Shown here: positions 17,693 through 48,422 of the stretch, in pieces
Layout of the letters: every line of letters starts with the position of its first letter
How positions within the stretch are numbered: the stretch's first letter is position 1
DNA from: Cyanobacteria bacterium M_surface_10_m1_298
Lineage (GTDB): Bacteria > Cyanobacteriota > Cyanobacteriia > PCC-6307 > Cyanobiaceae
Assembly: GCA_016882485.1 (NCBI GenBank)
Contig: VGPT01000001.1
Location: 1-64,000, forward strand
Direction of reading: 5' to 3'
Length of the DNA stretch: 64,000 nt
The notes under the pieces: model-generated
Told to the model about the DNA's origin: nothing
The model's database searches: none
What the model saw: only the letters and a program-made list of their open reading frames with translations
Position numbers and translations under genes: made by a program

Positions 17693-17706
17693 GTTACTAC
17701 TGATAC
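17693..17706 (+). promoter_or_regulatory. NtcA-like box upstream of glnA
   Basis: GTT-N8-TAC (GTTACTACTGATAC), one mismatch to GTA-N8-TAC; TAN3T hexamer TACGGT 23 nt downstream. Confidence 0.65.
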
Positions 17707-17729: not shown

Positions 17730-17735
17730 TACGGT
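17730..17735 (+). promoter_or_regulatory. Putative -10 of the NtcA-dependent glnA promoter
   Basis: TACGGT (TAN3T), spacing fits the class II NtcA architecture. Confidence 0.6.
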
Positions 17736-17788: not shown

Positions 17789-19207
17789 ATGGCCAAAACC
17801 GCCCAGGACGTCCTCCGTCAGATCAAGGACGAGGGCATCGAACTGATTGACCTCAAGTTCGTGGATCTCCACGGCAAGTGGCAGCACCTCACTGTGTGTG
17901 AGGACCTGATCGATGAGGCCGCCTTCAGCGAAGGCGTGGCCTTTGACGGCTCCTCGATCCGCGGCTGGAAAGCGATCAACGAGTCGGACATGGCGATGGT
18001 GCCCGACCCCAACACCGCCTGGATCGACCCCTTCTACAGCCACAAAACCCTCAGCCTGATCTGCTCGATTCAGGAGCCCCGCAGCGGCAAGCCCTACGCC
18101 CGCTGCCCCCGCGCGCTCGCCCAGAAGGCTCTCGATTACCTCGGCTCCACCGGCCTGGCCGACACCGCCTACTTCGGCCCTGAGCCCGAGTTCTTCATCT
18201 TCGACGACGTTCGCTACAAGAGCGCCAACGGCTCCAGCTTCTACAGCGTGGATTCGATCGAAGCCCCCTGGAACACCGACCGGGTGGAAGAAGGCGGCAA
18301 CCTCGCCAACAAGATCCAGCTGAAGGAGGGCTATTTCCCGGTTGCCCCCAACGACACCCTGCAGGACATGCGCAGCGAAATGCTGCTGACCATGGGTGCC
18401 CTGGGCGTGCCGATCGAGAAGCAACACCACGAAGTGGCCACTGCCCAGCACGAACTCGGCATCAAGTTCGCCGAGCTGATCAGCGCGGCCGACAACGTGA
18501 TGATCTACAAGTACGTGGTGCGCAACGTTGCCAAGAAGTACGGCAAAACCGCCACGTTTATGCCCAAGCCGATCTTTGCCGACAACGGCAGCGGCATGCA
18601 CGTGCACCAGAGCCTCTGGAAAGGCGGGCAGCCCCTGTTCTGGGGTGAAGGCACCTACGCCAACCTCTCGCAGACCGCCCGCTGGTACATCGGCGGTCTG
18701 CTGAAGCACGCCCCCAGCTTCCTGGCCTTCACCAACCCCACCACCAACAGCTACAAGCGCCTGGTGCCCGGTTTCGAAGCGCCGGTGAATCTGGTGTATT
18801 CCCAGGGCAACCGCTCCGCCGCCGTGCGCATCCCGCTCACCGGCATGAACCCCAAGGCCAAGCGCCTCGAGTTCCGCTCCGGCGATGCCCTCTCCAACCC
18901 CTATCTGGGCTTCGCGGCGATGCTAATGGCCGGCATCGACGGCATTAAGAACCAGATCGATCCGGGCGACGGCACCGACGTTGACCTGTTCGAACTGTCG
19001 GCTGAAGAGCTGGCCAAGATCTCCACGGTGCCCGCCTCACTGAACGGATCCCTGGAAGCTCTCAAGGCCGACCACGAGTACCTGTTGGCCGGTGGCGTCT
19101 TCACCGAAGACTTCATCGACAACTGGATCGCCCTGAAATACGAGGAGGTGCAGCAGCTGCGTCAGCGGCCCCACCCCCACGAATTCACCATGTACTACGA
19201 CGCCTGA
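17789..19207 (+). CDS. glnA: Glutamine synthetase, type I
   Basis: [36 protein letters not shown]...[20 protein letters not shown]-track start at 17627 is too early. Confidence 0.98.
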
Positions 19208-19231: not shown

Positions 19232-19257
19232 GCCCCGGCAGATGCCGGGGCTTTTTT
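19232..19257 (+). terminator. Rho-independent terminator of glnA
   Basis: GCCCCGGCA-ga-TGCCGGGGC followed by TTTTTT. Confidence 0.9.
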
Positions 19258-19264
19258 GTGCCCA

Positions 19265-19507
19265 TCAGTGATGGCGGAGCTGTTGGATGGCACTGTCGTG
19301 CAGGCGCTGCTCATGGGCATGCCGTTCGGCCCAGACCAAGGTCTGGGAATCCACACGCTCTTCGTGGGCCAGATCAGGTTGAGCACGCCGGCGACGCAGC
19401 CAACCACTCAGGCGTCGGTCAGCCCGCTGACGATCACGCATCCAAGCGACGTAGTGGGGGTCACTGAAGCGAAGGTCTGGCCTGGCATCGGCTCTGGAAT
19501 CCGACAT
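19265..19507 (-). CDS. Small Arg-rich hypothetical protein
   Basis: 80-aa ORF preceded by AAGGAGG five nt before the ATG. Confidence 0.55.
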   Translation of the reverse strand: MSDSRADARPDLRFSDPHYVAWMRDRQRADRRLSGWLRRRRAQPDLAHEERVDSQTLVWAERHAHEQRLHDSAIQQLRHH

Positions 19508-19535
19508 CACATCCTCCTTGGTTAAACGCCACGTC

Positions 19536-19605
19536 CGAGAGGCTCTCGTGAAACCAGTCTGTAGCTGTTGCTACCGATAATCGGGTCTCTACATCACTCG
19601 TGATG
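19536..19605. repeat. Cluster of four adjacent short palindromes
   Basis: CGAGAG-g-CTCTCG (19536-19548), GTAGC-tgtt-GCTAC (19561-19574), CCGAT-a-ATCGG (19574-19584), CATCAC-tc-GTGATG (19592-19605). Confidence 0.7.
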
Positions 19606-19713
19606 CAGGTTCATCTGGATACCGAGCAGTGGGCGTGGAGCCTGACTCGCAGCGACCGATGCAATCAGCTGAAATGGGATGCCCCACGCCCATCGCCCTG
19701 CAGCCATGGCTGA
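19603..19713 (+). CDS. Candidate 36-aa upstream ORF overlapping the methyltransferase start
   Basis: MQVHLDTEQWAWSLTRSDRCNQLKWDAPRPSPCSHG*; ATGGCTGA overlap with the next start codon. Confidence 0.3.
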   Translation: MQVHLDTEQWAWSLTRSDRCNQLKWDAPRPSPCSHG

Positions 19714-20761
19714 CGCCGTCACCAAGCTCGCCTACGAGGCCCTTCAGCAGGGCAAGAGCCTGGTGGGTGTCGCCCACAAGGAAATCAGCACCCGGCTGAT
19801 GGAACTAGTGGCGCCTGCTGGAGCCCCGAAAACGCTGCCGATCCCGCCGCAGATGCTGAAGGATCTGCAGGCCTCCCACAAGGCCTTGATGGAGGTGGAT
19901 TGGCAGGAAGCCGAAGAAGGTCTGTATCCCACCGCATTGCTGTTCGATGCGCCCTGGGGAGACTGGGCGGCGCGCTACCCCTTGGTGTGGCTGGATATGC
20001 CCAGCACCTGGACGCGCCGCTCGGAGCGCAATGTGCGCGATTTGCCCAGGGATGTCGAGACCGACAACTATCCCGACTACTACCTCCAGAACTTCCACCA
20101 CCAAACCGACGGCTACCTGAGCGATCACTCGGCATCGCTCTATGACCTCCAGGTGGAGATCCTGTTCAACGGAACGGCCGATCCGATGCGGCGCCGGGTG
20201 ATCAAGCCCCTGGTGCAGGGATTGCGGGCCTTTGCCGATCGTCCCGCCAGCAGCCTGCGGGTGCTCGATGTGGCCACCGGCACAGGACGGACCCTGCATC
20301 AACTGCGCTCTGCCCTGCCCAACGCCCAGCTCGTGGGTCTGGACCTCTCCAGTGCCTACCTGCGTCAAGCCAACCGCTGGCTCTCCCAACGGCCCAGTGA
20401 GCTTCCACAATTGGTGCAGGGCAATGCCGAAGCAATGCCCTTCGCTGAAGGAAGCATGCAAGGGGTGACCTGTGTGTTCCTGATGCACGAGCTCCCGGCG
20501 GAAGCGCGCCAGGCCGTTCTGGATGATTGTTTCCGCGTGCTGGAGCCGGGGGGAGTGCTGGTGCTCGCCGATTCGGTGCAGCTGTCTGACTCGCCTCAAT
20601 TTGAGGTGGCGATGGACAACTTCCGACGGGTCTTCCATGAGCCCTATTACCGCGACTACATCGGCGATGACATCAACGGCCGTCTCAGCGCCGCCGGCTT
20701 CAGCGGAATCCGCGCCAGCTCCCATCTGATGACGCGGGTCTGGACTGCCACCAAGCCCTGA
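19706..20761 (+). CDS. SAM-dependent methyltransferase
   Basis: VLDVATGTGRTLHQLRSALPNAQLVGLDLSSAYL motif I; start reset to MADAVTKLAYEAL. Confidence 0.93.
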   Translation: MADAVTKLAYEALQQGKSLVGVAHKEISTRLMELVAPAGAPKTLPIPPQMLKDLQASHKALMEVDWQEAEEGLYPTALLFDAPWGDWAARYPLVWLDMPSTWTRRSERNVRDLPRDVETDNYPDYYLQNFHHQTDGYLSDHSASLYDLQVEILFNGTADPMRRRVIKPLVQGLRAFADRPASSLRVLDVATGTGRTLHQLRSALPNAQLVGLDLSSAYLRQANRWLSQRPSELPQLVQGNAEAMPFAEGSMQGVTCVFLMHELPAEARQAVLDDCFRVLEPGGVLVLADSVQLSDSPQFEVAMDNFRRVFHEPYYRDYIGDDINGRLSAAGFSGIRASSHLMTRVWTATKP

Positions 20762-46838: not shown

Positions 46839-48422
46839 TCAGAGCTGGATGTCCGCAGAGAACGTCGTGCGGGGCTCGCTGGAAAGCCCCAGGGTGAGGG
46901 AGCTGTCTTCAGTGCTCTCCACGACGTTGTCGCTCAGCTCTGCGGCCTGCTGGGAGCCGAGCTCAGCGATCACATCGGCCACGATCTGCTCGGCCCGCTC
47001 CTGCTCATCAGCGCTAAAAGGCAGAACCGCAGCGTCGGCTGCTTCGTTCTCGAACTCGGGCAAACCGCTCTCCGCTGCCGCGTTCTCCGTGACGAGGTCA
47101 GGGGCAGGAGAGGCCTGAATCGCCGGAGGGGCGGGCATCTGAGGACGCACGATCCGCGGTGCCGGAGCCGTTCCACTGATCTGCTTCATCCAACCGCGGC
47201 GGGCCACCTCGTAGAGCACCATCGCCGTGGCCACCGAAGCATTCAGGCTCGGGGTGGCACCGCGAAGGGGAATGCGCACCAGCTGATCGCAGTGCTTGCG
47301 GGTCAGCATCGAGAGACCGGAGCCCTCCGAGCCGGTGACGATCACCAGCGGACCATCGAGATCGGCATCGCTGAGGGACACGCTGCCTTCACCGGCCAAA
47401 CCGATCACCCGATACCCCTCCTGCTTGAGGGTGTCGAGCGCCCGGTTGAGGTTGACCACCCGCGCCACGGGAAGGTGCTCCAGAGCACCAGCCGCCACCT
47501 TGGCGACGGAGCCGGTGAGACCTGCGCTGCGGCGCTGCGGCAGCACCAGACCATGGGCGCCCAGGGCCTCGGCACTGCGCACAATCGCCCCGAGGTTGTG
47601 GGGATCGGTGATGCCGTCGAGGGCCATCAGCAAGGGGGGTTCGCCCAGAGCCTTGCAACCGTCAACCAGGGTGCCGAGATCGAGGGTGTCGGCGGCAGCC
47701 GCCTGCAAGACGATGCCCTGGTGCACCGCACCATCGGTCAGTTGACCGAGCCTGGCCCAGGTGACTTCCTCGACCAAAACGCCACCAGCCTTGGCCTCGC
47801 GCAGCAACTGCAGGAAACGCGGTTGAAAGCGCATCTCCGGAGTGCACCAGATGCGGTGAATCGGACGATCACTCTCCAGGGCCGCTTGGGCGGCATGGCG
47901 ACCCCAGATCAGATCATCCGCTGGGGAGGCATTGAAACGCTCCGCCTCTCCGGCGGGAACTTCAACCGCGATGGGGCTACGACCCTGGGGGCGCTCGCGA
48001 CGCTCATCCCGGCGATCATCACGCCACTCGTCGCGGCGATCATCACGACGGTCATCGCGGCGCAGCTCACGGCCAGGGGCGCGGTAGGGACTGCGTCCGC
48101 CAGATGGGGCCTCGAAGCGACGACCCTGGGGCCGCCCCTGGGGGCGGCCGGAGCGACGTTCAGGGCCGCTGGACCCTTCTGGCCGACGCTCAAAGCGCGG
48201 ACGGCGCTCGCCTGCATCAGGACGCTCGCGCCGCTCGCGGCGCTCCTCTCCCTCCGGATTCCATTCACCGCGGGGCCTGAACGGGCGCGCACCGGATCGG
48301 GGTGCGGGCCGGCCGCCAGCGCGGCCGGCAGGCCGGTCGGAGAAACGACCACCAGAGCGCGCTGGTTGGCCGGCACCGGAGCCCTGGCGTTGGTCCTTAC
48401 GACGATCAAAACGGGGGCTCAT
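46839..48422 (-). CDS. rlmB: TrmH/RlmB-type 2'-O-methyltransferase with long Arg-rich disordered N-terminal extension
   Basis: C-terminal SPOUT motifs ITDPHNLGAIVRSAEALGAHGLVLPQRRS and GSEGSGLSMLTRKHCDQLVRIPL...SLNASVATAMVLYE. Confidence 0.93.
   Translation of the reverse strand: MSPRFDRRKDQRQGSGAGQPARSGGRFSDRPAGRAGGRPAPRSGARPFRPRGEWNPEGEERRERRERPDAGERRPRFERRPEGSSGPERRSGRPQGRPQGRRFEAPSGGRSPYRAPGRELRRDDRRDDRRDEWRDDRRDERRERPQGRSPIAVEVPAGEAERFNASPADDLIWGRHAAQAALESDRPIHRIWCTPEMRFQPRFLQLLREAKAGGVLVEEVTWARLGQLTDGAVHQGIVLQAAAADTLDLGTLVDGCKALGEPPLLMALDGITDPHNLGAIVRSAEALGAHGLVLPQRRSAGLTGSVAKVAAGALEHLPVARVVNLNRALDTLKQEGYRVIGLAGEGSVSLSDADLDGPLVIVTGSEGSGLSMLTRKHCDQLVRIPLRGATPSLNASVATAMVLYEVARRGWMKQISGTAPAPRIVRPQMPAPPAIQASPAPDLVTENAAAESGLPEFENEAADAAVLPFSADEQERAEQIVADVIAELGSQQAAELSDNVVESTEDSSLTLGLSSEPRTTFSADIQL

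Follow-up and report, generated by a model that had tools for sequence, protein, structure and literature searches.

What are the inverted repeats that crowd the divergent intergenic region at 19508-19705 of the window, by which we mean the whole 64-kb stretch of DNA that was analysed, and do they form one structure or several unrelated ones? An earlier note claimed five of them, and each could be confirmed. Direct reading of the sequence gives CGAGAG-g-CTCTCG at 19536-19548 (repeat 1), GTAGC-tgtt-GCTAC at 19561-19574 (repeat 2), CCGAT-a-ATCGG at 19574-19584 (repeat 3) and CATCAC-tc-GTGATG at 19592-19605 (repeat 4), and a distal 9-bp inverted repeat (repeat 5) pairs TGGGCGTGG with CCACGCCCA at 19630-19638/19684-19692. 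Searched for perfect inverted repeats with arms no shorter than 5 and a loop no longer than 4, the 198-bp region yields repeats 1-4 and no others. Of 5,000 dinucleotide-shuffled versions searched in the same manner, just one had four repeats within 71 bp, i.e., the arrangement is rare. Taken alone, the cluster is only weakly surprising because the densest spot of the 64-kb window had been chosen. One other cluster with four short palindromes is found in the window, at 47691-47761, inside long ORFs.

The four-repeat cluster is unusual for its length, yet it is not one unit. Across an alignment of 11 intergenic sequences (the window and 10 close relatives), repeats 1, 3 and the distal repeat are absent from 10/10 relatives and reach full pairing in the window alone (1/11 each). 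Full pairing of repeat 4 is likewise confined to the window; the block around it (about CCATNAANNTTGATC...GTTCA) is conserved as an upstream element on the minus strand (19591..19613), and the sequences indicate that repeat 4 is a copy, perfected by chance, of this non-palindromic element. Repeat 2 is the only conserved dyad of the five, with full pairing in 9/11 aligned sequences and GTA/TAC kept in 11/11. Conservation thus supports the dyad of repeat 2 and sets aside repeats 1, 3, 4 and the distal pair; these four are for the most part chance occurrences. Repeat 2 is a GTA-N8-TAC box (GTAGCTGTTGCTAC, 19561..19574; GTAGCAACAGCTAC in minus-strand reading), and we followed it through a larger collection of 64 distinct loci, each anchored at its closest match to GTAGCAACCGCTAC. 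With this anchoring, which somewhat favours the box, GTA-N8-TAC is intact in 54/64 and missing from 10/64. Conservation of the box columns is mostly 75-100% (48% at loop position 9), against mostly 30-60% in the flanks of this set. Of the 54 box-bearing loci, 13 have lost the inner pair 4-11, with GTA/TAC near-invariant, which points to a constraint on GTA/TAC as in a protein site and not as in an RNA stem.

On the minus strand, the box precedes a small gene (19265..19510) that encodes 81 aa from a GTG or 80 aa from an ATG at 19507. A ribosome-binding site, GGAGG, can be read directly at 19513..19517 on the same strand, with GGAGG-like sequences at this place in many relatives, and in most loci 29-53 nt separate the end of the box from the chosen start codon. 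A putative -10 element, CAGACT (minus strand, 19556..19561; CAGAAT in most relatives), overlaps the last base of the box. The hexamer CAGA[AC]T recurs with this overlap at a fixed offset of +13 from the box start in 35/54 loci, and CAGAATGG is present also in the box-less loci L021/L041, which together single it out as the likeliest -10; against our preferred explanation, it is a weak one in the form CAGACT found in the window. The box position of about -18.5 is an estimate from an inferred transcription start. Further upstream, a minus-strand TGAAC (window 19609-19613) is found 39 bp from the box in 14/54 small-gene promoters and 39-40 bp from it in 7/20 promoters of glutamine-II riboswitch genes, and a second factor common to both kinds of promoter may bind there.

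Two larger genes flank this promoter region and the small gene. Divergent from the small gene is a SAM-dependent methyltransferase (plus strand, 19706..20761; Methyltransf_25, E 1.5e-20), whose probable start, ATG 19706, follows 13 bp after the end of the distal repeat; the conserved motif CTGAAAT (plus strand, 19669..19675) is its probable -10 element. On the other side, glnA, encoding type I glutamine synthetase (plus strand, 17789..19207; TIGR00653, 656 bits), lies tail-to-tail with the small gene, so that the 3' ends of the two face each other. The glnA terminator, a hairpin followed by a T run, was read directly at 19232..19259 of the plus strand. On the minus strand it lacks such a run, and the small-gene transcript may hence continue antisense to glnA.

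Which regulator would recognise such a box? GTAN8TAC is the published consensus of NtcA (PMC9430850; PMC3898017), and the genome encodes NtcA (L121, 374 bits, above the cut-off). The pattern is scarce in this 2.0-Mb genome, with 23 sites vs 276 for the reversed control pattern. One of the 23 is in the promoter of the ammonium transporter gene amt, and 7 nt separate another, GTAGTCGTTGCTAC, from the downstream aptamer of the only glutamine-II riboswitch of the genome (L132, G000:C2:64621-64695, aptamer C2:64642-64695), whose short downstream ORF starts MNTLALIRAQILKAK. When this riboswitch and those of relatives were examined, 20/21 had the box 1-21 nt upstream. Small-gene and riboswitch boxes can be identical: the exact sequence GTAGCAACCGCTAC occurs in 10 of 21 riboswitch promoters and is the commonest small-gene box too (20/54). 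Near-identical boxes, GTAGCAACCGATAC (L076) or GTAGCAACGGATAC, are found in the glnA promoters of relatives. Taken together, these likenesses suggest NtcA as the protein that binds the box. The riboswitch promoters (L221-L239) come in two layouts. In one, the box lies 1-7 nt before the aptamer, and several of these promoters have a -10 resembling CATAAT on the upstream side of the box; in the other, the box lies 17-21 nt before the aptamer, and a -10-like hexamer separates the two. An NtcA motif at PMM1846 is mentioned in a review (PMC6316151).

The position of the box speaks to whether NtcA would switch the small gene on or off. We searched for the activator spacing, defined as a box with at most one mismatch, N21-24 and TAN3T, and used 1,880 random stretches as the control. 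It was present at 36/48 glnA promoters vs 25/1880 control stretches; in the window itself, the NtcA-type site of glnA (GTTACTACTGATAC, plus strand, 17693..17706) is followed by N23 and then TACGGT at 17730-17735. At the small gene it was found at 0/54 promoters in either direction. Thus, the small gene is like canonical NtcA-activated promoters (class II; glnA, amt) in having the same GTA-N8-TAC box, and unlike them in having no TAN3T at N21-24. In the NtcA-repressed genes gifA and gifB the sites lie over the core promoter (PMC6316151), and in NtcA-repressed pirA they do so near the start point (PMC8092223). The missing activator spacing and these precedents make repression the likelier role of the box. 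Overall, we assign a probability of roughly 0.75 to the reading that the region holds a single candidate NtcA operator in the small-gene promoter, acting as an off-switch. The proposal in the earlier note of clustered operators for a dimeric regulator is thereby borne out in part: repeat 2 fits a site for an NtcA dimer, and there is one operator rather than a cluster.

Several other explanations have to be weighed against this one. The earlier note also offered a multi-hairpin sRNA or a structured 5' leader of the methyltransferase mRNA, and an RNA made of these palindromes would be consistent with four hairpins within 71 bp and with a minus strand that, in the window, folds better than its shuffles (z -2.4). 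That score is not kept among 11 relatives, which span -4.2 to +0.7, and the plus strand, on which a methyltransferase leader would lie, shows no advantage over its shuffles in folding (z +0.6 in the window). Rfam at the gathering threshold gave no match at the site, and relaxed thresholds gave weak sub-threshold matches, none above chance. Moreover, hairpins 1, 3 and 5 are missing in 10 relatives and the box varies in the way of a DNA dyad, not of a stem. Neither RNA proposal is upheld by these results, and we consider a structured RNA highly improbable, as conservation and fold scores speak against it. The idea that the box serves the divergent methyltransferase, as an activating or a repressing site, draws on its place in an intergenic region common to both genes and on the methyltransferase being the gene most constantly found beside the small gene (28/30 loci in a search with the small protein itself, glnA adjoining in 20/30). 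Yet a box within 350 nt upstream of the methyltransferase was found in 35/44 loci with an adjoining small gene vs 0/35 without one, and the methyltransferase retains its own -10-like motif, [CT]TG[AG]AAT at most 90 nt upstream, in 75/80 loci, whether the small gene is there or not. In addition, no TAN3T stands at activator spacing on the methyltransferase side, and in L177 and L187, where the methyltransferase is not nearby, the small gene has the box in front of it all the same. A methyltransferase operator is therefore quite unlikely, with the 0/35 against it; these comparisons assign the box to the small gene on the minus strand, a gene that the earlier note had left unmentioned.

Even if the box is an operator of the small gene, a CRP-family protein other than NtcA could use it, and the genome does have a second CRP-like gene (L122), which scores 83 bits to the NtcA model. 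We think this very unlikely: besides matching the published consensus, the sequence is near-identical to that found with standard NtcA spacing at glnA, and the amt promoter has a GTAN8TAC box as well. NtcA might also bind the box and yet activate the small gene from an unusual position, given that other activating positions have been reported, for example a site at -77.5 in Anabaena gifA (PMC6316151). The short distance to the start codon, 29-53 nt in most loci and often with a GGAGG-like sequence in between, would leave little room for activator spacing; beyond this, TAN3T at N21-24 is lacking in all 54 promoters and the same box precedes glutamine-II riboswitch genes, whose expression is on when nitrogen is in excess. 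Activation from such a position is unlikely on this evidence, and repression by NtcA remains the reading that we prefer.

Under repression by NtcA, the switch could work as follows. When nitrogen is short, NtcA loaded with 2-oxoglutarate, together with PipX, would bind the box at 19561-19574, where it would overlap the -10 region and block RNA polymerase, so that the small protein would not be made; at the same time, the same NtcA would activate glnA from its normally spaced activator site. When ammonium is plentiful, NtcA would leave the box and the small protein would be made. By analogy with gifA, this protein could then hold back nitrogen assimilation, with glutamine synthetase itself as a possible target, while the mRNA of the small gene might run on as an antisense transcript to glnA.

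Searches of Pfam, NCBIfam and PDB with the sequence of the small protein gave no match, nor did a fold search of its model against PDB. The predicted structure consists of two helices (mean pLDDT 77, pTM 0.33), and the overall fold is uncertain given a pTM of only 0.33. By eye, the protein seems to comprise two copies of a helical repeat around W-A-x2-H-x4-R-x-H; the homologues L088 and L098 have three copies, not two, and are strongly acidic. Net charge is +3 in the window and ranges from -14 to +11 among homologues. These were found in 24/25 genomes of the genus, the window's own, from a picocyanobacterium of the Vulcanococcus/Cyanobium type, included, and in 39/151 Cyanobiaceae-type genomes, compared with 0/106 genomes outside Cyanobiaceae in a class-wide sample. 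In one relative (L024/L031), the small gene has two in-frame stops and stands beside a decayed box (GTAGCAACCGCCAC), a natural joint loss.

The closest parallels are other small genes of nitrogen control. Like gifA (which encodes IF7) of Nostoc sp. PCC 7120 and gifA/gifB of Synechocystis, the small gene encodes a small protein and has an NtcA-type promoter site; like Nostoc gifA, whose mRNA runs on antisense to glnA, it lies tail-to-tail with glnA (PMC11288750). Unlike the products of gifA and gifB, its protein is not consistently basic and has no detectable sequence homology to IF7/IF17 (profile comparison, hhalign probability 0.5-0.6%). The distributions differ as well: IF7/IF17, the known glutamine synthetase inhibitors, match 70/106 genomes outside Cyanobiaceae and 0/151 within, whereas the small protein was found in Cyanobiaceae only. 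The IF7 query used here matched one genome at 83% identity over its whole length, which makes it a valid probe. A further likeness is to pirA (ssr0692) of Synechocystis, also a small gene with NtcA-type sites near the start point (PMC8092223); PirA differs in having 51 aa and binding PII, and this likeness is by description. With the glutamine-II riboswitch (downstream-peptide, RF01704) genes of picocyanobacteria the small gene has in common the identical GTAGCAACCGCTAC promoter box, but its leader is without the glutamine aptamer, the single one in the genome being that at C2:64642-64695. Riboswitch and small gene showed, by inspection, no pattern of complementary presence.

These parallels matter because an unnamed small protein appears to be under a gifA-like NtcA switch, and in a gifA-like layout, in a family where IF7/IF17 were not found (0/151 genomes). 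According to a 2018 review, the regulation of glutamine synthetase is unclear in marine picocyanobacteria, which apparently lack full-length inactivating factors (PMC6316151). It is conceivable, if speculative, that nitrogen assimilation in freshwater and some marine picocyanobacteria has a new regulator in the small protein, which would replace IF7/IF17 there and might inhibit glutamine synthetase, being repressed by NtcA and made in nitrogen excess from a gene tail-to-tail with glnA, perhaps with an antisense mRNA tail. We regard a part in glutamine synthetase control, suggested by analogy, as a tentative lead. The link to glutamine synthetase is weakened by the small gene being with the methyltransferase (28/30) oftener than with glnA (20/30). 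A second outcome, which concerns the promoter rather than the protein, is a candidate NtcA-repressor sequence, GTAGCAACNGCTAC, common to the small gene and the glutamine-II riboswitch genes. Finally, among the loci gathered here, L078 (CALPNT020000001.1) is titled Bifidobacterium breve and has a picocyanobacterial glnA-methyltransferase locus; it is probably a mislabelled bin.
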